24,209 bases of DNA from the IMG/VR virus record IMGVR_UViG_3300021961_000619, positions 1-24,209 of that record, one strand, 5' to 3'. Origin of the DNA: a virus. A program made the translations under genes and the position numbers. This document shows positions 3,916 through 22,845 of this stretch, in pieces (position 1 is the first letter of the stretch; every line of letters begins with the position of its first letter). A model generated the notes under the pieces. That model saw only the letters and a list, made by a program, of their open reading frames with translations. It was not told the origin of the DNA and made no database searches.

Positions 3916-3948
3916 ATGCGCAACTTTTATACCCCTACCGCCCGATGA
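3916..3948 (+). CDS. Possible 10-codon leader ORF coupled to the GNAT gene
   Basis: ATG at 3916 opens MRNFYTPTAR and stops with TGA at 3946-3948, overlapping the ATG at 3945 of the next gene as ATGA. AAGGAG at 3897-3902 is the only good ribosome site nearby; its spacing to 3916 is long (13 bases), but the downstream gene has no site of its own. This arrangement suggests a leader peptide that delivers ribosomes to the next start. It may be chance, since the ORF is very short. Confidence 0.3.
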   Translation: MRNFYTPTAR

Positions 3949-4406
3949 TTACAAGCAATATGAACGTCACGTTTGTGCCGTTTCACTGGGCGCACCCGTC
4001 AGCGATGGACATGCGCCCGTTCGAGCGCGCCTATTACAAGAACCTGCCGGACTATCAGGATCGGCTGAAGATGTACGCGCAGTGCGGACAGAGTTTGACG
4101 GCGATTTGCGACGGCGAAATCGCGTGCTGCTTTGGCGCAATACCGATCTGGCCGGGTGTCGCGGAGGCGTGGCTACTTACGTCATACATGGTTGATACAA
4201 GGGCTGTATCACTTACGCGCGGCGCTATACGATACTTCAACAATATTTGTAGCGAAATGAGCCTACATCGGTTGCAGATTACAGTAGATTGTGCAAATGA
4301 TGTTGCAATCCGGTGGGCAAAAGCATTAAACTTCACTCAAGAAGGCGTCATGCGCAAGTATGGCCCCGATGGCTCCGACCATATTATGCTTGCAAGGATT
4401 CCGTAA
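3945..4406 (+). CDS. GNAT-fold acetyltransferase-like phage protein (T7 gp13-like position)
   Basis: The 153-residue product has the core of the GNAT acyltransferase fold. There is a strand pair around ACCFGAIPIWPGVAEAWLL (about residues 60-78), a helix with RGAIRYFNNICSE, then RLQITVDCANDVAIRWAKALNFTQEGVMRKYGPDG (about 109-143), the usual A..WA..LGF..EG signature. Many podophages carry such a protein next to structural genes; T7 gp13 (internal virion protein A, DUF2833) is a degenerate member. Real acetyl-CoA binding is not certain, as the classical Q/RxxGxG/A loop is not clear. No strong ribosome site precedes the ATG at 3945; a leader ORF may couple it. The second half (about 4180-4400) is visibly richer in A and T than the first half, a hint of mosaic origin. 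It overlaps the next gene by one base. Confidence 0.75.
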   Translation: MITSNMNVTFVPFHWAHPSAMDMRPFERAYYKNLPDYQDRLKMYAQCGQSLTAICDGEIACCFGAIPIWPGVAEAWLLTSYMVDTRAVSLTRGAIRYFNNICSEMSLHRLQITVDCANDVAIRWAKALNFTQEGVMRKYGPDGSDHIMLARIP

Positions 4407-4636
4407 TGGGTGGACTTTTCTCAGCACCGAAGATGCCTGCCCCCGCTCAGGTAGCGCCGGAGACGACGGCGGCGCAAGACCGGCAGGAGGCGCGCCTCGC
4501 AGAGCAGGAGCGCGAACAGCAGGCGCGTCTGGCTGCGCAGCGTCGCGCACGCCAGATTGGCGGCCAGCGTATGCTGCTTTCTCAGGAGCGTGAGAACGCG
4601 CAGACCGGCATTCAAACTACGTTGGGGGTCGGATGA
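4406..4636 (+). CDS. Small Ala/Arg/Gln-rich protein, paralogue 1 of 3 (gp6.7/gp7.3-like virion candidate)
   Basis: The 76-residue product starts MGGLFSAPKMPAPAQ, has a highly charged helical middle (EARLAEQEREQQARLAAQRRARQ) and ends TGIQTTLGVG. The two following genes share the MGG start, the basic RARxxG core and the QTTLG(V/I)G end, so the three are tandem paralogues. Small Pro/Ala-rich, basic proteins with MGG starts and glycine-rich ends sit at this position in many T7-like phages. T7 gp6.7 and gp7.3 are minor virion proteins ejected early or needed for tail assembly; assigning that role here is inference from position and composition. It starts at ATG 4406, overlapping the previous stop, with AAGGA at 4394-4398. 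Confidence 0.65.
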   Translation: MGGLFSAPKMPAPAQVAPETTAAQDRQEARLAEQEREQQARLAAQRRARQIGGQRMLLSQERENAQTGIQTTLGVG

Positions 4637-4647
4637 TGGGCGGTGTA
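4616..4647 (+). repeat. Junction direct repeat, copy A
   Basis: This 32-base stretch covers the end of paralogue 1 and the start of paralogue 2. By hand alignment it matches 4885-4916 at 28 of 32 positions, including the unbroken 12-mer TCGGATGATGGG. Such a repeat would allow unequal recombination to add or delete whole genes. Confidence 0.8.
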
Positions 4648-4905
4648 GCGCCAAAAATAGTAACGGGATGGGCGCAGGCGGTTTCGGGAAAAAAAATTGG
4701 AGACGGCGGCGGCATGGAATTTGTCGGCGGCGATAGGCCTCAAATGTTTCCAGAAAAAACGCCTACCGCTAATCCAGTCCAATCCACGCAGGAGGCGCGG
4801 CAACGCGCCGCTCGCTCACGCGCTCGTCTCACGGGTCGTCCTTTGCTTGGACCGGGCGGTTCGCGGCGCGACGAGGGCTTGCAGACCACGTTGGGAATCG
4901 GATGA
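4633..4905 (+). CDS. Small basic protein, paralogue 2 of 3 (gp6.7/gp7.3-like virion candidate)
   Basis: The 90-residue product (89 if the second ATG at 4636 is used) starts MMGGVAPK. It carries an insert not seen in its sisters (about residues 8-45, including WAQAVSGKKIGDGGGMEF), then PVQSTQEARQRAARSRARLTGRPLLG and ends GLQTTLGIG. The PVQST core and the tail match paralogue 3 closely. ATG 4636 gives the same MGG start as paralogue 1 and a better 7-base spacing from GGGGG at 4624-4628, so it may be the true start. Stop and start codons overlap with both neighbours. A role as a minor virion or ejected protein is inferred from position; no enzymatic motif is present. Confidence 0.62.
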   Translation: MMGGVAPKIVTGWAQAVSGKKIGDGGGMEFVGGDRPQMFPEKTPTANPVQSTQEARQRAARSRARLTGRPLLGPGGSRRDEGLQTTLGIG

Positions 4906-4916
4906 TGGGTGGTGTA
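4885..4916 (+). repeat. Junction direct repeat, copy B
   Basis: Second copy of the 32-base junction repeat, spanning the end of paralogue 2 and the start of paralogue 3. It differs from copy A (4616-4647) at four positions. The end of paralogue 3 (about 5094-5119) keeps a diverged version of the first half. Confidence 0.8.
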
Positions 4917-5117
4917 ATCTCAAAGCCGAAAGCGCCGGCACCGGCACCGGCACCAGCGCCCGCTCCTGTAGCGCCCCCGCCCGCTCCCGTGCAATCCACA
5001 CGAGAGGAGCGCCAGATTGCCGCTCGGCGGCGCGCCCGCATGTCGGGCCGCGCCCTTCTCGGGACGCAAGCTGAGGCCGCCGGTCAGGAAATTCAGACGA
5101 CGCTTGGAGTTGGCTGA
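4902..5117 (+). CDS. Small Ala/Pro-rich basic protein, paralogue 3 of 3 (gp6.7/gp7.3-like virion candidate)
   Basis: The 71-residue product (70 from ATG 4905) begins MMGGVISKPK. An alternating Ala-Pro stretch follows (about residues 11-29), then PVQSTREERQIAARRRARMSGRALLG and the family ending EIQTTLGVG. The AP run is an extended, flexible linker of the kind seen in minor virion proteins. It is coded by repeated CCGGCA units (about 4935-4955), which can expand or contract by slippage. Start and stop overlap the neighbours on both sides. Function is inferred from position and composition as for the other two paralogues. Confidence 0.65.
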   Translation: MMGGVISKPKAPAPAPAPAPAPVAPPPAPVQSTREERQIAARRRARMSGRALLGTQAEAAGQEIQTTLGVG

Positions 5118-5257
5118 TGCCCTTGAAAGAAGGCAAGTCGGACAAGACGGTCGGCAAGAACATCAAGATGTTGATGGCCGAAGGCCGGCCCATGAAGCAG
5201 GCGGTGGCGATTGCCATGCGCAAGGCCGGCAAGCCTAAGCCGCAGGACATGAAGTAG
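5117..5257 (+). CDS. Conserved 46-aa phage protein (DUF6496-like)
   Basis: The 46-residue product begins MPLKEGKSDKTVGKNIKMLM and continues AEGRPMKQAVAIAMRKAGKP. I recognise this pattern (K-G-K-S..TV..NI..L..EG.P..QAVAIA...AG) from many phages near portal genes. The start overlaps the previous stop (TGATG), with GGAG at 5106-5109 at 7 bases. The product is short, basic and helical. A similar motif occurs in DUF6496 proteins; its function is not known. The gene is easily missed because of its length, but motif, ribosome site and tight packing together make it convincing. Confidence 0.75.
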   Translation: MPLKEGKSDKTVGKNIKMLMAEGRPMKQAVAIAMRKAGKPKPQDMK

Positions 5258-5530
5258 TTGGTCAAGAAAGCCTACCAGAATCCCTCAGGCGGCCTGAATG
5301 AAGCGGGCCGCCGCCACTTCGAGCGCAAGGAAGGGGGTGATCTAAAGGCTCCGGTGAAGTCGGGTACGAACCCGCGCCGGGTTTCTTTTGCTGCGCGGTT
5401 TGCCGGCATGGACGGCCCGATGAAAAACGAGAAGGGTGAACCTACGCGCCTTGCACTTGCGCTGCGGGCTTGGGGTTTTGGATCAAAGGAAGCCGCCGCT
5501 AATTTTGCCGCGCGCCACAAAAAGAGTTAG
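5258..5530 (+). CDS. DUF6321-like phage protein
   Basis: The 90-residue product holds the conserved phage pattern GGLNEAGRRHFERKEGGDLKAPV, then RRVSFAARFAGMDGPMKNEKGEPTRLALALRAWGF. This corresponds to DUF6321 (usual consensus with LSxKGRxxYxRKxGxxLKxPV and RRKSFCARMxGMxGPMKDxKGKPTRKxLALRxW). The start is TTG at 5258, directly after the previous stop; no ATG exists before residue 51. AGGA at 5243-5246 is the nearest ribosome-like sequence. These proteins are found beside portal genes and in packaged or virion-linked gene sets, but no activity is known to me. The cysteine of the consensus SFCAR is Ala here. Confidence 0.75.
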   Translation: MVKKAYQNPSGGLNEAGRRHFERKEGGDLKAPVKSGTNPRRVSFAARFAGMDGPMKNEKGEPTRLALALRAWGFGSKEAAANFAARHKKS

Positions 5531-5532
5531 CC

Positions 5533-7074
5533 ATGCTCACCGTCGAACAGATTATGAAGCGCCACGATCTGGCACAGCGTCGCAAGGATAACTGGCGTCA
5601 GATTTACGAGGATTGCTACGAGTTCGCGCTGCCGCAGCGGAACCTGTACGACGGCTACTATGAGGGCGGCGGCTCACCCGGTCAGAACAAGATGTCGCGC
5701 GTGTTCGACAGCACCGCGATCAACGCGACGCAGCGTTTTGCAAACCGCATTCAAGCTGGCCTGTTCCCGCCGTATGGCCGCTGGTGTCGTCTTGAGCCCG
5801 GTCCCGATATTCCATTGGATCGCCAGCTTGAGGCGCAAGCTGCGTTGGACATGTATAGCGAGAAGATGTTCTCGCTGTTGCGCCAATCGAACTTTGATCT
5901 GGCTATGGGCGAGTTCCTCATGGACCTCGCGGTCGGCACCGCCGTCATGCTGGTCCAGCCCGGCGATGACATGACGCCGATCCGCTTCACTGCGGTTCCG
6001 CAGTATCTTGTAGCCATCGAAGAGGGCGCGCACGGCAAGGTCGATAATGTCTATCGACGGATGCGCCTGAAGGCGGAAGCGATTCAGCAGCATTGGCCGG
6101 ACGCGGACATTCCGGTTCGTCTGGCGCAAATGATTAGCGAGAAGCCGACCGACGAGATCGAGCTGATCGAGGCAACCATCCTCGACGTGCAGCGCGGTGA
6201 CTTTGACTACTGCGTGATCTGGCCGCAGGGCAAAGAGCGGCTGCTTCATCGCAAGATGATTTCATCGCCGTGGATTGTGGCCCGTTACATGAAAGTGGCC
6301 GGCGAAATTTACGGACGCGGCCCGCTCGTCACGGCAATTCCCGACATCAAGACGCTCAACAAGACGCTCGAACTCCTGCTGAAGAACGCCTCGCTTTCTA
6401 TTGCAGGCGTCTACACGGCTGCGGATGACGGCGTGCTGAACCCACAGACGATCCGCATCGTGCCGGGTGCGATCATTCCCGTCGCGCGCAATGGCGGGCC
6501 ACAGGGCGAAAGCCTGCGCATGCTTCCGCGTTCAGGTGACTTCAACGTGTCGCAGATCGTGATTAACGACTTGCGCATGAACATCAAGAAAATCCTTCTT
6601 GATGACACACTGCCGCCCGACAATATGTCGGCGCGTTCTGCGACGGAGATCGCCGAACGTATGAAGGAACTGGCGCAGAACCTCGGCTCTGCATTCGGTC
6701 GCCTGATTACCGAGACGATGGTGCCGCTTATCGCGCGCATCCTCTATGTCATGGACGAGCGTGGTCTGATTGAGATGCCGCTGCGCGTCAATGGGCTTGA
6801 GGTTAAGGTTACGCCGGTGTCGCCGATTGCGCAGGCGCAGAACATGGGCGACATCGAGAAGATCACGCAATGGGTCCAGCTTTCCTCGGCACTTGGGCCG
6901 GAGGGGCAGATGGCCCCACGTATGGGTGCCATTGCCGATTACGTCGCTGACAAACTTGGCGTTCCTGCCGAACTGCGCACGTCGCCGCAGGAACGGCAGC
7001 AGATGGCCGAGCAGGCCATGCAGATGGCGCAGATGGCCGCCGAGCAGCAAGGCATTATTCCGCCGCAGCAATAA
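5533..7074 (+). CDS. Portal (head-to-tail connecting) protein
   Basis: The 513-residue product is the podophage portal, T7 gp8 type (Pfam head-tail connector family PF12236). It forms the dodecameric ring through which the terminase packages DNA and on which the tail assembles. Diagnostic stretches are the N-terminal WRQIYEDCYEFALPQRN (21-37), DSTAINATQRFANRIQAGLFPPYGRW (59-84), and the later PDNMSARSATEIAERMKEL with LITETMVPLIARILYVM. The C-terminus is Met/Gln-rich (about 485-513), as in many relatives. Length is typical. It starts at ATG 5533 with a weak AAGAG upstream, two bases after the previous stop. The Bbp19-like gene and the scaffold gene follow, the usual order for this lineage. Confidence 0.95.
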   Translation: MLTVEQIMKRHDLAQRRKDNWRQIYEDCYEFALPQRNLYDGYYEGGGSPGQNKMSRVFDSTAINATQRFANRIQAGLFPPYGRWCRLEPGPDIPLDRQLEAQAALDMYSEKMFSLLRQSNFDLAMGEFLMDLAVGTAVMLVQPGDDMTPIRFTAVPQYLVAIEEGAHGKVDNVYRRMRLKAEAIQQHWPDADIPVRLAQMISEKPTDEIELIEATILDVQRGDFDYCVIWPQGKERLLHRKMISSPWIVARYMKVAGEIYGRGPLVTAIPDIKTLNKTLELLLKNASLSIAGVYTAADDGVLNPQTIRIVPGAIIPVARNGGPQGESLRMLPRSGDFNVSQIVINDLRMNIKKILLDDTLPPDNMSARSATEIAERMKELAQNLGSAFGRLITETMVPLIARILYVMDERGLIEMPLRVNGLEVKVTPVSPIAQAQNMGDIEKITQWVQLSSALGPEGQMAPRMGAIADYVADKLGVPAELRTSPQERQQMAEQAMQMAQMAAEQQGIIPPQQ

Positions 7075-9518: not shown

Positions 9519-10133
9519 ATGGCCGCAGGCGATACCAAACTCTCGATTTGTTCTGACGCGCTCATCATGCTTGGTGCGTCGCCGGTCTCAAGTTTTAGTG
9601 AAGGCACGGATGAGGCGCAGGTCGCCGACCGCCTTTACGACGACATCCGCGACACGCTGTTAATGCAGTATCCGTATAGCTGGTCGATCAAGAAGGAGGC
9701 GTTGGCCCGCCTTCTTGATGCGCCGAAAACAGAATGGCGCTACAAGTATCAACTTCCCGGCGACATCATTGGTAACCCGAAGGCCGTCTTCATCAGCAGC
9801 GCAGCGGGCGCGTCCCCCGCGCGCGATTTCGACATCTACGGCACGGCGCTGTACAGCAATTACGAAAGCATCTGGATTGATTACCAGTACGTTCCGGAGC
9901 CCGCCTTCTTCCCGCCGTACTTCGTCAATCTACTCAAACACGCGCTGGCTGCGGCATTTGCCGAGCCGATCACGGACCAGATCACGAAGGCTGATTACTA
10001 CCATCGCCTGACGTATGGCGCGCCGGAACAGAACATGCGTGGCGGTCTGGTCCGCGTGGCAATGAACATCGACGGCGTTGACAGGCCACCGCAGAACATC
10101 ATGGACTTCCCGCTGACGGATGTACGTGGATGA
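9519..10133 (+). CDS. Tail tubular protein A (T7 gp11-like adaptor)
   Basis: The 204-residue product shows the family pattern LSICSDALIMLGASPVSSFSEGTDEAQVADRLYDDIRDTLLMQYPYSWS (about 7-55). PKTEWRYKYQLPGD and a C-terminal YHRLTYGAPEQNM block follow. In T7, gp11 forms the dodecameric ring that binds the portal and to which nozzle and fibres attach. Length is close to T7 gp11. The start has GAGGTAAG (9509-9516), and the stop overlaps the nozzle gene by 4 bases, so the pair is probably made in a fixed ratio. Confidence 0.92.
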   Translation: MAAGDTKLSICSDALIMLGASPVSSFSEGTDEAQVADRLYDDIRDTLLMQYPYSWSIKKEALARLLDAPKTEWRYKYQLPGDIIGNPKAVFISSAAGASPARDFDIYGTALYSNYESIWIDYQYVPEPAFFPPYFVNLLKHALAAAFAEPITDQITKADYYHRLTYGAPEQNMRGGLVRVAMNIDGVDRPPQNIMDFPLTDVRG

Positions 10134-12337
10134 GCCGCATCATTCAAATTCAGAATGATTTCACGTCCGGTGAACTAGACCCAAAACTGCGCGCCCGCAC
10201 CGACATCGCGCAATATCAGTCTGGTCTGACGACCGCGCGCAATGTTTCCATTCAGCCGCAGGGTGGCGCGCGTCGGCGCGACGGCACGAAGTTCATCTAT
10301 CAACTTGACGCCGGTGCGGGCAATGCGGTGCGCATGGTCGCGTTTGAGTTCAGCACGAGCGATAGCTACATGCTCGTTTTTACGCCGGGCCGCATGTATG
10401 TTTTCAAGAACGGCGCGCTGGTCCCGAACATCAACGGCAGCGGAAATGATTATCTTGCCGTAGCTAGTCTGACTGCGGCGATTATCCCCGAGATGAACTG
10501 GACGCAAAGCGCCGACACAGTAATCATCGTGCATGAAGACCTGCCGCCGCTAAAGATTTTGCGCGGTGCTACGGACGCCTCGTGGACGGCAAGCAGTCTG
10601 GAATTCACATTCATTCCAAAATATGCGTATGAGTTTGATACTCACGAGCCGCAATTTTCAATTACGCCATCCGCCGCCAGCGGGAACATCACCATTACCG
10701 CGTCTGGCGTCACGACTGACACCGGGAATGCTCAAGCGGGGACGATCAGCACGATCACCTTGAAGTCGGCCTCCAGCTTTACATCGGACGACCAGCCCAA
10801 CGGAATGTATGTTGCAATCACGTCTGGCGCCGGATCGGGGCAAACGAGGCACGTTGAGGACTACGTGGCTTCGACCAAGGTGCTGACTGTCTACCCGGAC
10901 TGGGACACCGCCCCAGACAATACGTCGTCTTATGAAGTTAAAGCGTTTAAGCCTGCCGCCGTAAATGAATACATCTCCGTGCTTAACGGCTTTGGCTATG
11001 CGCGAATTGTCGAGTACGTGTCGGACACTTCCGTGCGCGCCTTTGTCGAAGTTCCGTTTTTTGACACAAGCGCCATCGCCGCCGGCAACTGGCAAAGCGA
11101 GCACGGCTACGAGGATGCGTGGTCTGATGCTAGAGGATGGCCGCGCAGCGCAACTTTCCATGAGGGCCGGCTGTACTTCGGCGGCGCTAAGTCGTTGCCG
11201 TCTACAATATGGGGGTCGCGCGTAGCTAGCTTCTTTGACTTTGCGCCCAATGAGTCATTGGACGACGACGCGGTAGAGGCCACCCTCGACACCGGCACCT
11301 TTAACGCCATTGTCGATGTTTATTCAGGCCGCCACCTCCAAGTGTTCACGACGGGCGGCGAGTTCTATGTGCCGCAGGCACTGGATGAACCGATCACGCC
11401 CGCCACGTTGATCGTCAAACAGCAGTCTTCGTACGGCATGAAGCCGGGAATACGTGTGCAAAACATCGACGGCGCATCAATGTTTGTGCAGCGTCAGGGT
11501 AAGTCACTTCAGGATTTCGTCTACACCGACGTTCAGAACGCCTACACGTCTGCCAAGATTTCACTGCTATCGTCCCATTTGCTGAAGTCTCCTAGCGAGA
11601 TGGCGACGCGAGTTTCGACACGAACTGACGAGGGCGACCGCCTGCTGATCGTGAACGACGACGACGGCTCTATCGCTTGTTACACTTTGTTGCGCTCTCA
11701 GAACGTCATTGCGCCGAGTGAATGGACGACAAGCGGGCAATTCCTTAGCATCGGCGTCGATGTAGACGACATCTATACCGTCGTGAAACGAACGGTGAAT
11801 GGGAGTGCGGTGTACTATGTTGAACTTTTCGATTCAGACACCCTTCTTGACTCAGCCAAAACGGGCGGCGCTGCGGCTTCTGTCGCGATGTCTCACCTTG
11901 AAGCGGCGACTGTCAAGATCATTCGAGATGGCGTGGTCGAACCTGACCAAATTGTTCCAGCGTCTCCGTACACAGTTACGTTTGAGGTGGCTGCGACTGA
12001 AAGCTATCAGGTAGGTTTGAACTTCACGCCAGAGATCAAGACGCTACCGACGGAGCCGCGATTGTCCAGTGGCTCGCTGCGCGGCTTTAAGAAGCGCATC
12101 TTTGAGGTCAACGCTGAAGTTTTTGAAACGCAAGCTATGACGATCAATGGCAGAGAGATACCGTTTCGTCGTTTTGGTGTTGGCCTGCTGGATCAGGATG
12201 TGCCGGAGTTTACCGGCATCAAGACGCTGCACGGCATCTTGGGTTACAATTATGACGGTCAGATCACAATCGGCCAATCTGTGCCGTTGAAGATGACGCT
12301 GTTGGGGATCGACTACAAACTAAGCGCGGGGCAGTAA
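10130..12337 (+). CDS. Tail tubular protein B (T7 gp12-like nozzle)
   Basis: The 735-residue product is the nozzle that forms the distal tail tube. The N-terminus is diagnostic: QNDFTSGELDPKLRARTDIAQYQSGLTTARNVSIQPQGGARRRDGTKFI (about 7-55). Mid-protein motifs include DAWSDARGWPRSATFHEGRLYFGG (about 327-350), GSRVASFFDF and GEFYVPQALDEPITPATLIVKQQSSYG (about 410-436), all typical of this family. The length fits (T7 gp12 is about 790 residues). It overlaps the adaptor gene as ATGA and is followed after one base by the first internal virion protein. Confidence 0.93.
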   Translation: MSRIIQIQNDFTSGELDPKLRARTDIAQYQSGLTTARNVSIQPQGGARRRDGTKFIYQLDAGAGNAVRMVAFEFSTSDSYMLVFTPGRMYVFKNGALVPNINGSGNDYLAVASLTAAIIPEMNWTQSADTVIIVHEDLPPLKILRGATDASWTASSLEFTFIPKYAYEFDTHEPQFSITPSAASGNITITASGVTTDTGNAQAGTISTITLKSASSFTSDDQPNGMYVAITSGAGSGQTRHVEDYVASTKVLTVYPDWDTAPDNTSSYEVKAFKPAAVNEYISVLNGFGYARIVEYVSDTSVRAFVEVPFFDTSAIAAGNWQSEHGYEDAWSDARGWPRSATFHEGRLYFGGAKSLPSTIWGSRVASFFDFAPNESLDDDAVEATLDTGTFNAIVDVYSGRHLQVFTTGGEFYVPQALDEPITPATLIVKQQSSYGMKPGIRVQNIDGASMFVQRQGKSLQDFVYTDVQNAYTSAKISLLSSHLLKSPSEMATRVSTRTDEGDRLLIVNDDDGSIACYTLLRSQNVIAPSEWTTSGQFLSIGVDVDDIYTVVKRTVNGSAVYYVELFDSDTLLDSAKTGGAAASVAMSHLEAATVKIIRDGVVEPDQIVPASPYTVTFEVAATESYQVGLNFTPEIKTLPTEPRLSSGSLRGFKKRIFEVNAEVFETQAMTINGREIPFRRFGVGLLDQDVPEFTGIKTLHGILGYNYDGQITIGQSVPLKMTLLGIDYKLSAGQ

Positions 12338-12338
12338 G

Positions 12339-12827
12339 ATGGCGGCTGCACTTCCATTCATCGGCGTGGCCGTGTCTGCCGTATCTGCATTCGGACAGAT
12401 ACAGGCTGGCAGAGCGCAAGCAAATGGTCTTGCCCAACAGGCCGCAATGGCGCAGGTGCAGGCTCGCGGTGAGGCGCTGAAGTACAGGGAACAAGGCGTT
12501 GATGTTTTGCGCAACATTGTGCGTACTCGCGCTACTATTCGCGCCAGAGCCGCAGCCGGCGGAATCGACCCGTTTTCCGGTAGTGCGGACGCGCTTTCTA
12601 CCTTTGCAATGACGGAAGGCGCTAGAGAACTTTATGTCACGCGCGAAAATGAAATCATTGCCCGAGAAGGTGGCTCAATACAATCAAGTCTTCTGATGCA
12701 GCAAAGCAAATCGGCATACAATGGCGGTATCTTTGGTGCAATCGGCACCTTGGGAAGCGCCGCGTTGTCGTTCAGCAAGATCGGCGGTCCGCCCGCCGGC
12801 GGCGCGCCCGCTGGCGGGACTAAATAG
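12339..12827 (+). CDS. Internal virion protein, T7 gp14-like (first ejection protein)
   Basis: The 162-residue product sits directly after the nozzle gene, as gp14 does in T7. It has a hydrophobic N-terminal segment (LPFIGVAVSAVSAF, about 5-18) and a long helix rich in Ala, Gln and Arg. RARAAAGGIDPFSGSADAL (about 68-86) is typical of this family (AAxGxxxxxGS). A glycine-rich tail (GGPPAGGAPAGGTK) closes it. In T7, gp14 is ejected first and forms the outer-membrane part of the channel. Sequence conservation is low in this group, so the call rests on these segments plus gene order. Confidence 0.82.
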   Translation: MAAALPFIGVAVSAVSAFGQIQAGRAQANGLAQQAAMAQVQARGEALKYREQGVDVLRNIVRTRATIRARAAAGGIDPFSGSADALSTFAMTEGARELYVTRENEIIAREGGSIQSSLLMQQSKSAYNGGIFGAIGTLGSAALSFSKIGGPPAGGAPAGGTK

Positions 12828-18934: not shown

Positions 18935-20491
18935 ATGGCTAATTACAATATCAACGCGGTGACGCGGCGCGTGGTCTACAGCGGCTCTGCCGGTCTCGGG
19001 CCATACGCATTCACGTTTGAGATTCTGGAGCAGACCGATATTGCGGTCTACTTCAACGCGGCCAATCTGACGCTGACGACCGATTTCACCGTCACCATCA
19101 ACGCGAACGGAACCGGCAGCATCACAATCGTGACCGGCACTAATGTGCCATCGACACCGACAGCCAGCGACCAGATCGTGATCGTAGGCTCTCGCGATAT
19201 TGAGCGCACCACGGACTTTGTGACTGCCGGCGATTTCCCTGCTTCGTCCATCAACGAGCAGCTTGATAGCCAGATCATCATGATCCAGCAGGTCGCGGAG
19301 GAGAACCGTCGCGGCATGCGCGCGCCGATCTACGATCCTGCGCTGATCGAAGATGGCGGTGTCGTTGACATGACATTGCCGACGAAGGCGTCTCGCGCCG
19401 GCAAGGTGTTGGCGTTCGACAGCAACGGCAACCCGGCTGTCGGCGAGGACATCGGTAACTGGCGCGGCGATTGGGCAGCGGCGACCGCTTATACGGTGCG
19501 CGACCTTGTGCGCGATGCAAGCAACTCAAATGTGTACCGCTGCAACACGGCGCACACTTCTAGCGGCTCCGTGCCGCTGTCTTCCAACGCTGACATTGCT
19601 AAATGGGATTTGGTTATCAACGTGTCGGACGCGCAGGCTTATGCCGATGAGGCGGAAGCGTGGGCTGCCAAGACGGACGGCATTGTTGAGTCCACGGATT
19701 ATTCCGCGAAGGCATGGTCGATTGGCGGCACGGGCGTCACCAGCACGGCATCGCGCGGCGCGGCGAAAGAGTGGGCAACGACGACCGGCTCGACAGTAGA
19801 CGGCACCGAGTACAGCGCCAAGCATTACTCGCAGGCCGCTTCTTCCTCGGCGAGTAGCGCATCCTCCAGCGCGTCGGCTGCGTCCACCTCGGCCAGCAAC
19901 GCTTCAACCAGCGCGTCGAACGCCTCGACCTCAGCGTCTAACGCGGCGACCAGCGCGTCTAACGCCGCATCCTCGGCCAGCAGCGCCTCGACCAGCGCGT
20001 CGAATGCGGCGAGTTCGGCCTCGGCTGCGGCTGCATCGGCTGCGTCAATCTCGCTGCCCCTCGCTGTGGCAAGCGGCGGCACCGGCGCGACCGACGTCGG
20101 CGACGCGCGCAGCAACCTCGGCCTCGTGATCGGCTCCGACGTACAGGCGTTCGACGCCGACACCGCAAAGACTGACGTTGCGCAGACATTCACGGTGAGT
20201 CAGCGCGGCACGATCACGACGGATAATGATCTCAGCTTCGACCTCAGTGTGACGAATAACTTCAAGTGTACCCCCAGCGGAACCGGCACGCTGACGTTCA
20301 CGAATCACACCGCCGGTCAGTCGGGCAACATCTTGCTGATTAACACAGGCGGCCACGCGATCAGCCTCGCGGCGACGACCAAGGGTGACGCTAACTTGGC
20401 CACAACGATCTCGACTGCTGGCACCTACTGGCTCTCATACTATGACGACGGCACTAACGCCTACGTCACCACCAGCGCGGCGTTCGTCTAA
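18935..20491 (+). CDS. Tail fibre / adaptor with T7-type N-terminal domain and Ser/Ala heptad stalk
   Basis: The 518-residue product starts with the T7 gp17-type tail-attachment domain (PF03906). It has RRVVYSGSAGLGPYAFTFEILEQTDIAVYF (about 10-39) and RDIERTTDFVTAGDFPASSINEQLDSQIIMIQQVAEE (about 89-125). A middle part (about 165-300) holds a WRGDWAAATAYTVRDLVRD carbohydrate-binding-like segment and WAAKTDG/YSAKAWS repeats. A Ser/Ala/Asn/Thr heptad stalk (about 301-370) precedes the linker LAVASGGTGATDVGDARSNLGL. The last 120 residues are beta-rich (QSGNILLINTGGHAISL). It lacks a large receptor-binding end, so it probably connects the tail to the next gene's product. GAGAGG at 18922-18927 serves the start; the stop overlaps the next ATG. 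Confidence 0.88.
   Translation: MANYNINAVTRRVVYSGSAGLGPYAFTFEILEQTDIAVYFNAANLTLTTDFTVTINANGTGSITIVTGTNVPSTPTASDQIVIVGSRDIERTTDFVTAGDFPASSINEQLDSQIIMIQQVAEENRRGMRAPIYDPALIEDGGVVDMTLPTKASRAGKVLAFDSNGNPAVGEDIGNWRGDWAAATAYTVRDLVRDASNSNVYRCNTAHTSSGSVPLSSNADIAKWDLVINVSDAQAYADEAEAWAAKTDGIVESTDYSAKAWSIGGTGVTSTASRGAAKEWATTTGSTVDGTEYSAKHYSQAASSSASSASSSASAASTSASNASTSASNASTSASNAATSASNAASSASSASTSASNAASSASAAAASAASISLPLAVASGGTGATDVGDARSNLGLVIGSDVQAFDADTAKTDVAQTFTVSQRGTITTDNDLSFDLSVTNNFKCTPSGTGTLTFTNHTAGQSGNILLINTGGHAISLAATTKGDANLATTISTAGTYWLSYYDDGTNAYVTTSAAFV
19886..20011 (+). repeat. Tandem 21-bp (7-codon) repeats with 42-bp higher period in the fibre stalk
   Basis: Six units of about 21 bp start at 19886, 19907, 19928, 19949, 19970 and 19991. 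The motif ACCAGCGCGTC(G/T)AA(C/T)GC recurs at 19907, 19949 and 19991, exactly 42 bp apart, so the higher period is two heptads. The units encode the heptad (A/S)(S/A)TSASN. Slippage or recombination in such DNA can change stalk length. Confidence 0.85.
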
Positions 20492-22845
20492 TGTCAATCA
20501 TTCAAGGCAACACCAAGGTCTCGGCTGGCGGGACCACCATCGACCAGTCATTGCGGTTTAACGACGATGATTCGGCGTATCTTACAGACACGCTTGGAAC
20601 TGCAACAGATTCGAACCGATGGACGTATTCAGTATGGGTAAAGCGCGGAGCATTGCCCGGAACTATAATGTCGCTTATCAATAGCAATTTTGCCGGAAAC
20701 GATGCTGGGTTTTTGGCAATGTCGTTTGATACGAACAACACTTTTTACATGACAGGCTGGACTACTCGTTGGCGTCAAACGTCACAAGTATTTAGAGACC
20801 CTTCTGCTTGGTATCACATCATTGTTGCGGTTGATACAGATCAAGGAGTCGCCAATGATCGAATTAAAATTTATGTCAACGGTAGTCAGATAACTAGCTT
20901 TAGCACGACCAATAATCCCTCAAGCGGCGCGAACCTCGGACTGAATCAAGCTGCTGCACACGAGATTGGTCGAGATAACGGCGGCATTCGTTATTTTGAT
21001 GGCTACATGGCCGAGATTAATTTCATTGACGGCCAAGCCCTAGCCCCTACTGACTTCGGTGAGTTCAACGACGACGGCGTGTGGATTGCGAAACGATTTG
21101 CCGGCGCATACGGAAACAACGGCTTCTACCTCACAGGCGAAGACTCCGCTGATCTTGGCGCTGATTACTCCGGCAACGGGAATGATTTCACGTCGTCAGG
21201 CTTGACGACAGCCGATCAGGTCACTGATACGCCGACTGAGAATTACTGTGTACTAAACGTGCTGAATGAATATGGCACATTAGGCACTATGGGGTGTTCG
21301 GATGGAAACCTTAGAAGTAGTCCGGGTGGCGCCAGCACTAATAAAGGTTGGCGTTCGACGATTGGCCCTACATCAGGCAAATGGTATTGCGAAGCCACTT
21401 TTACGGCAACGTTGTCTGACAATAACGGGGGTGTTGCTTTAACAACTGGAAGCGGTATTCCGGGCGAAACTAGCGACCCTACTGGCATTCGTTATATGGA
21501 CTATGGAAACTGGCGACAAAACGGAGTTACTGTTGGTCTTCTCGCCGGTATTTATGTGAACGACGTGGTGATGATGGCGTTTGACGTGGACGCTGGGAAA
21601 GTCTGGTTTGGCAAAAACGGCTCGTGGTATGCAAGTGGTGATCCTGCAAATGGCCTCAACCCAATCAGCACTACTTGTCCTAGTCCAGCATTCCCTGCTT
21701 CGTATCATTATAACAATAATGCAATTACAACGTGGAATTTTGGTCAACTAGGCTTCACCTACACCCCGCCCACCGGCTTCTCAGCCCTGTCCACCGCGAA
21801 CCTGCCTGAGCCGACGATCAAGGACGGCTCGGCTCATTTTAATGCCATTACCTACACAGGTGATGGAACAACAAGTCGTACAATTACTGGCGTTGGTTTT
21901 CAGCCTGATCTGGTGTGGATTAAATGTCGAAGTAACACTGAAAGCAACATTCTTACAGACGCTGTGCGAGGTATATCCGCCGGTCGATTAAAATCCGACA
22001 GCACGGCTGCGGAGGAGTCACAATCGTCAACCCCAACTGCAACATTGTCTGGTTTTGATTCAGATGGTTTTGTTGGCCCGAGTTCAACTCCGGGGAATAT
22101 CAACGTCAATAGTAGAACGTATGTGGCACGGAACTGGTTAGCCGGGAACGGCACTGCGTCGAACACCGACGGCACCATCACGTCTACGGTGTCGGCTAAT
22201 CAGACGGCTGGGTTTAGCATTGTTAGCTATACTGGTAACGGAACTGCCGGAGCAACCGTTGGTCATGGACTTGGTGTTGCTCCTGACATGCTGATTGTTA
22301 AAAACAGAGACGGTACTGAGCAGTGGATTGTTTATCACCAGTACAATGGTGGAACAAAATATCTGCTACTTAATGCGGGTAATGCTGTCGCCACATCTTC
22401 GGGGGCATGGAACAATACCGACCCAAGTAGCACAGTCGTCACATTAGGTGGTGGCGGGTTTGGTACAAATGTCAGCAGCAACGCGATGATTATGTATGCG
22501 TTTGCCGAAGTCGAAGGCTTCAGCAAATTCGGCAAATACATCGGCAACGGTAATGCTGATGGCCCCTTTGCTTGGTGCGGATTTAGACCTGCTTTTATTA
22601 TGGTGAAAAACATCAACCAAGCAGTAGCGTGGGGCATGTTCGATAATAAACGAATTGGCTATAATGCTGATAACTTTATTCTTTATTCAAGTAACACAAA
22701 CGCTGAAACAACTACTCAATTTGTCGATTTCTTATCAAATGGTTTTAAGTTGCGTAGAACAGGACAGGCTGAGAACGTCAACGGAAACACGCATATCTTC
22801 ATGGCATTTGCCGAACACCCCTTCAAGTACGCCAACGCGAGGTGA
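20491..22845 (+). CDS. Receptor-binding / tail fibre protein with LamG-like, SPRY-like and three repeated modules
   Basis: The 784-residue product is modular. Residues about 18-215 look like a concanavalin A/LamG fold (SLRFNDDDSAYLT, WTYSVWVKRG, WYHIIVAVD, IKIYVNGSQ, FDGYMAEINFIDG). About 250-430 resemble a SPRY-type domain (GKWYCEATFTA, GIYVNDVVMMAFDVDAGKVWFGKNG). About 449-784 hold three copies of a DUF7483-like module starting FNAITYTGDG, FSIVSYTGNG and FSKFGKYIGNG, with GFQPDLVWIK, GVAPDMLIVK and GFRPAFIMVK as equivalent strands. The end IFMAFAEHPFKYANAR is shared by many marine phage fibres. These folds bind sugars or proteins, so host receptor binding is likely. The gene is coupled to the previous one (TAATG) and shows blocks of clearly different base composition. 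Confidence 0.82.
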   Translation: MSIIQGNTKVSAGGTTIDQSLRFNDDDSAYLTDTLGTATDSNRWTYSVWVKRGALPGTIMSLINSNFAGNDAGFLAMSFDTNNTFYMTGWTTRWRQTSQVFRDPSAWYHIIVAVDTDQGVANDRIKIYVNGSQITSFSTTNNPSSGANLGLNQAAAHEIGRDNGGIRYFDGYMAEINFIDGQALAPTDFGEFNDDGVWIAKRFAGAYGNNGFYLTGEDSADLGADYSGNGNDFTSSGLTTADQVTDTPTENYCVLNVLNEYGTLGTMGCSDGNLRSSPGGASTNKGWRSTIGPTSGKWYCEATFTATLSDNNGGVALTTGSGIPGETSDPTGIRYMDYGNWRQNGVTVGLLAGIYVNDVVMMAFDVDAGKVWFGKNGSWYASGDPANGLNPISTTCPSPAFPASYHYNNNAITTWNFGQLGFTYTPPTGFSALSTANLPEPTIKDGSAHFNAITYTGDGTTSRTITGVGFQPDLVWIKCRSNTESNILTDAVRGISAGRLKSDSTAAEESQSSTPTATLSGFDSDGFVGPSSTPGNINVNSRTYVARNWLAGNGTASNTDGTITSTVSANQTAGFSIVSYTGNGTAGATVGHGLGVAPDMLIVKNRDGTEQWIVYHQYNGGTKYLLLNAGNAVATSSGAWNNTDPSSTVVTLGGGGFGTNVSSNAMIMYAFAEVEGFSKFGKYIGNGNADGPFAWCGFRPAFIMVKNINQAVAWGMFDNKRIGYNADNFILYSSNTNAETTTQFVDFLSNGFKLRRTGQAENVNGNTHIFMAFAEHPFKYANAR

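Follow-up and report, generated by a model that had tools for sequence, protein, structure and literature searches.

Small pre-portal podophage proteins with a shared C-terminal module: candidate components of the portal and tail channel

Three adjacent genes with one C-terminal module

The podophage sequence analysed here, a 24.2-kb virus record (IMGVR_UViG_3300021961_000619, positions 1 to 24,209; hereafter the window), carries three consecutive small genes, A, B, and C, between its terminase and portal genes. These are real protein genes with one common C-terminal module. The genes run from the terminase large subunit through a GNAT-like protein, A, B, C, an open reading frame (ORF) of phrog_2423, and a DUF6321 gene to the portal (PF12236), and farther downstream lie the genes for the capsid protein, an adaptor-like tail protein (9519-10133), the nozzle, a gp14-like protein, and additional structural proteins (Table 1). 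Among named members of the phage collection, Methylophilales phage MEP301 is the closest relative (its portal is 68% identical), and a megablast search of the window against phage records returned no match.

The translations read MGGLFSAPKM...RRARQIGGQRMLLSQERENAQTGIQTTLGVG for A, MGGVAPK...SRARLTGRPLLGPGGSRRDEGLQTTLGIG for B, and MGGVISKPKAPAPAP...RRARMSGRALLGTQAEAAGQEIQTTLGVG for C. A preliminary description of this DNA had reported that the three genes at 4406-5117 have in common an MGG start, an RARxxG core, and a QTTLG(V/I)G ending, and both the translations and shuffling controls bear this out: local alignment scores were 66 for A-B, 121 for A-C, and 124 for B-C, none of which was equalled in 20,000 shuffles of any pair. 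Consecutive genes are joined by TGATGG overlaps, and the starts of B and C are also possible 3 nucleotides earlier. The ending TTLGxG occurs in exactly three of the 446 window ORFs (six-frame, at least 30 codons), namely A, B, and C, and these are also the only window hits of a C-terminal module profile below E = 0.1, a result that speaks to specificity and not to independent discovery, as family members served to build the profile. The genes are under purifying selection, with a ratio of nonsynonymous to synonymous substitution rates (dN/dS) of 0.05-0.11 for A and about 0.1-0.4 for B and C. All three products are small and basic (isoelectric point 10.5-11.6). AlphaFold predicted, with low confidence, a helix at about residues 18-72 of A and, again with low confidence, a short helix at residues 33-46 of C with no helix or strand elsewhere.

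Table 1. Genes of the small-gene locus and downstream structural genes in the window
Feature	Coordinates	Strand	Characteristics
ORF A, type A, 76 amino acids	4406..4636	+	LFSAPKMPAP N-terminal segment, long charged Q/E/R helix, C-terminal module RRARQIGGQRMLLS...GIQTTLGVG
ORF B, type B, 89 amino acids	4636..4905	+	Lys/Gly-containing N-terminal half unlike that of C; C-terminal module SRARLTGRPLLG...LQTTLGIG; alternative start 4633
ORF C, type B, extra copy, 70 amino acids	4905..5117	+	Ala-Pro linker N-terminal half; C-terminal module RRARMSGRALLG...IQTTLGVG; alternative start 4902
GNAT-like gene upstream of A	3945..4406	+	1-base overlap with A; phrog_308, E 5.4e-9; phrog_4177, E 2.3e-18
Small basic ORF, phrog_2423 (function not assigned)	5117..5257	+	PHROG match
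DUF6321 protein	5258..5530	+	PF19846
Portal (head-tail connecting protein)	5533..7074	+	PF12236, E 8.7e-100
Tail nozzle (tail tubular B-like), proposed docking partner	10130..12337	+	phrog_376, E 4.4e-130; PDB 8ck1 'Tail Nozzle', E 7e-47
gp14-like internal virion (ejection) protein	12339..12827	+	phrog_418, E 7e-13; PF24072 T7_gp14, E 0.011, below cut-off

The GNAT-like protein was linked to T7 gp13 through a common PHROG profile (phrog_308, which T7 gp13 itself matches at 1.1e-42); a direct BLAST search against T7 gp13 alone returned nothing. This gp13-family gene lies directly before the small genes in the window; in T7, gene 13 is beside gene 14. The nearest solved portal is PDB 9efk, whose phage was not found among the phage records. 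The window also encodes, at 18935-20491, a fibre-like protein in which Ala, Ser, and Asn form a long repeat tract (SASNASTSASNA), and a large DUF7483 protein (20491-22845; PF24299, E 5e-117), which is probably a tail or receptor-binding part.

Protein types, copy number, and copying of the module

We compared the window with relatives at 80 loci chosen by portal similarity and 80 chosen by type-A similarity. Related C-terminal endings are widespread among them, and the proteins fall into two types. Type A has a charged Q/E/R helix, the motif RARxxGGxRMLLS, and a TLG end, and type B has an Ala-Pro or Lys-rich N-terminal half, the motif RARRxGxRxLLG, and a TTLG end. Searched singly against phage records by tblastn, type-A and type-B members matched MEP301 only, whose corresponding proteins are gp42 and gp43, or gave no match. 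The usual layout is one type A followed by one type B in the gap between terminase and portal. Across 76 distinct terminase-portal intervals, two module genes were found in 56, one in 17, three in 2 (one of which is the window virus itself), and none in 1, so that 75 of 76 hold at least one. This profile count is too low, because some intervals scored with one gene hold a type-B protein that is long and whose module has diverged (e.g., L021 and L034), the Pelagibacter phage scored with none carries one diverged gene, and L204/L030, scored with two, carries a third; further three-gene loci are L012 and L047.

Three copies are a rare state, and the tandem triplication named in the preliminary description finds no support as the characteristic feature. 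There are indeed three adjacent paralogues, but they comprise one type A and two type B, and two copies are the norm. A and B are ancient paralogous types, and the window has the ancestral A/B pair with one further B-type gene, C. Nor is a simple dosage explanation supported, since each of the two types is distinct and conserved in its own right.

The N-terminal parts of the relatives vary, reaching proteins of about 290 amino acids. At L047, the final 130 nucleotides of both B-type genes are 97% identical in DNA while their N-terminal parts are unrelated; with a C-terminal half copied in this way onto an unrelated N-terminal half, the tail is a transplantable module. The third module gene of this locus (L047:400-720), with a long unrelated N-terminal part and a near-identical C-terminal half, is a recent copy. 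B and C of the window have the same layout at greater distance, being alike from PVQST on and unlike before it. In two lineages, the modules of A and B are 46-47% identical within the lineage, compared with 33-36% to their own orthologues across lineages. This likeness fits concerted change or repeated copying and does not by itself show a common binding site. Covariation of the A and B tails from the same genome in the window lineage was also considered as a signal and set aside: it was significant, but covariation of the N-terminal part was significant too, so shared ancestry accounts for it.

A candidate role in the portal and tail channel

The T7 gene order is 6.7-7-7.3-7.7-8, and gp6.7 and gp7.3 are encoded at places corresponding to the small genes of the window. 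The comparison with these two proteins drawn in the preliminary description holds for position, and both also show sequence similarity that is weak but exceeds the controls. In the T7 particle, residues 84-98 anchor each of six gp7.3 chains where nozzle and adaptor meet, placing K84/K85 on the end of the DNA; gp6.7 attaches to the portal barrel through residues 2-15, and both proteins are ejected during infection (PMC11784390). Both have been detected in virions of one T7-like phage by mass spectrometry (PMC4517105), and virions of Peru-2 contain a small protein, p2_32, from a similar gene position (PMC13320782).

We give about even chances to the reading that A and B/C represent two ancient families of minor podophage virion proteins of the portal/tail channel, in which A would work like gp6.7 and B and C like gp7.3, with the module docking on the tail. 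Each chain would consist of a flexible, lineage-variable N-terminal part and the common C-terminal module, the latter combining a basic RARxxG(R) patch with a hydrophobic LL and a TTLG terminus. Through this module the chain would dock at recurring sites in the wall of the tail channel (nozzle/adaptor or portal), the basic patch would contact the DNA end, and the N-terminal part would fill the channel, that of A reaching the portal barrel and internal core. At infection, A, B, and C would exit together with the core proteins. On the T7 analogy, the variable N-terminal parts would do the specific work and the C-terminal module would be the anchor. For a packing or docking role of the tail, we reason from the C-terminal loop solved in T7 gp7.3 (PMC11784390); the presence of A, B, and C in virions, their docking site, DNA contact, and ejection are inferred by the same kind of analogy.

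T7 gp7.3 (PF11653/phrog_1320, PDB 9jyz) resembles the family in its pre-portal position after the gp6.7 gene, its size, and its flexible N-terminal part, and its basic C-terminal core shows a weak likeness, KKARAGGKKSL against RRARxxGxRxLL. T7 gp6.7 (PF17570/phrog_1391) is likewise the first of a pair, and its N-terminus MCFSPKIKTPK weakly resembles MGGLFSAPKMPAP. The type-B profile aligned with KKKARxGGKKSLSVARSSG of gp7.3 at a score of 24.4 (maximum 12.2 in 50 column shuffles; HHalign probability about 22%), and the type-A N-terminus aligned with that of gp6.7, its portal-barrel loop I, at 16.0 (maximum 13.3 in shuffles; probability 22%). The type-A module compared with the gp6.7 C-terminus (CtA-Ct67) scored at shuffle level, and no common C-terminal module was detected. 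Several type A and B relatives match phrog_1320, the family that T7 gp7.3 matches (E 0.003-0.08), and C matches phrog_1391, the family of gp6.7, at E 0.017. The gp13-family gene directly before A and the location of the small genes between terminase and portal across the 76 intervals also speak for the proposed role. Other observations weigh against such a role. A, B, and C do not match the Pfam families PF11653 (gp7.3) or PF17570 (gp6.7), the former of which scores T7 gp7.3 itself at 2.8e-61; the HHalign probabilities of the T7 links are only about 20%; the type-A module against the gp7.3 C-terminus (CtA-Ct73) is at chance level, with 9 of 50 shuffles as good; gp7.3 ends in GINI and the window family in TTLG; and no virion proteomics of the window lineage was found in the literature. 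Because the T7 similarity is weak and sub-threshold, A, B, and C are said to work like gp6.7 and gp7.3 and are not filed as members of their families; the analogy has moderate support.

The proteins could instead be morphogenesis factors that are not necessarily retained in the virion, small portal/tail assembly chaperones whose module binds a common partner during assembly. Their location in the morphogenesis block agrees with this, but we think it unlikely, as particles contain the T7 counterparts and also Peru-2 p2_32, which has a similar gene position. Alternatively, the module might act as a signal instead of a dock, either targeting varied N-terminal cargo to the procapsid or tagging it for turnover by proteolysis; the copying of the C-terminal half as a unit at L047 and the wide range of N-terminal parts would suit such a tag, yet the type-B module weakly resembles the docked gp7.3 C-terminal loop, which needs no separate signal function, and we consider this improbable. 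In a non-structural role, these small, basic proteins with little predicted fold would bind DNA or RNA or serve host takeover, and would adjoin the portal gene by chance; this is very improbable given the same structural-operon place in 75 of 76 intervals and also in HTVC010P and the Skadi phages.

Should A, B, and C indeed act in the portal and tail channel, the copying of the module would suggest that the channel takes interchangeable small proteins. A broader version, in which the module is a general podophage tail-channel docking cassette, with one repeated site serving several small proteins, the cassette copied to new N-termini, and the tails of paralogues co-evolving, is possible but rather doubtful. 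The proposed role would also provide a sequence rule to spot gp6.7/gp7.3-like ejected proteins where authors report being unable to find them (e.g., ICP3 and Peru-2; PMC13320782). In Vibrio phage ICP3, where orthologues of gp6.7/gp7.3 were called not readily identifiable (PMC13320782), gp36 (L268:3825-4115) ends in GGKQSLSVSRSSGSGINI, corresponding to the gp7.3 C-terminus, and gp34 starts with MCIFKAP and is gp6.7-like.

Relation to phrog_9015 and phrog_831

Searching solved structures with profiles of A, B, and HTVC gave no credible match. Two PHROG families offer further comparisons. Members of phrog_9015, encoded by pre-portal genes of Acinetobacter TPWB-05 and Yersinia YeP4, share a basic patch, STVLT or SSLL, and a TTLGG or TLGA ending. 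Six of 13 type-B relatives matched this family weakly, with E values of only 0.005-0.13 for the relatives listed. A difference is that only one such pre-portal gene was seen in TPWB-05 and YeP4.

The likeness to phrog_831, a family whose function is not assigned, extends to gene arrangement. The Pelagibacter phage HTVC010P, whose gp03 and gp04 each match phrog_831, and the Skadi phages have the same tandem pair of small genes between terminase and portal, in the A/B layout of the window family, and their products have a basic patch and an STILTG...(K/R)(T/S)LLG ending. The window family differs in ending in TTLG and not TLLG, and has RMLLS/RPLLG in place of STILT. The phrog_831 hidden Markov model gave no match to A, B, or C of the window and was matched by 5 of 13 type-B relatives (best E 8.6e-6). 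HHalign assigned probabilities of 97.9% and 95.7% to type B against the HTVC types and 84.8% to type A against HTVC type A; stray scores near 130 arose in some of the column-shuffle controls run against the HTVC type-B alignment, and these controls were not used. When the genome collection was scanned with the HTVC-type profile, a single bacterial contig was found. The window family thus shares with phrog_831 a profile-profile likeness over most of the length together with a tandem pair before the portal, and if A, B, and C do act in the portal and tail channel, this would point to a function for phrog_831, which occurs in marine podophages such as HTVC010P.
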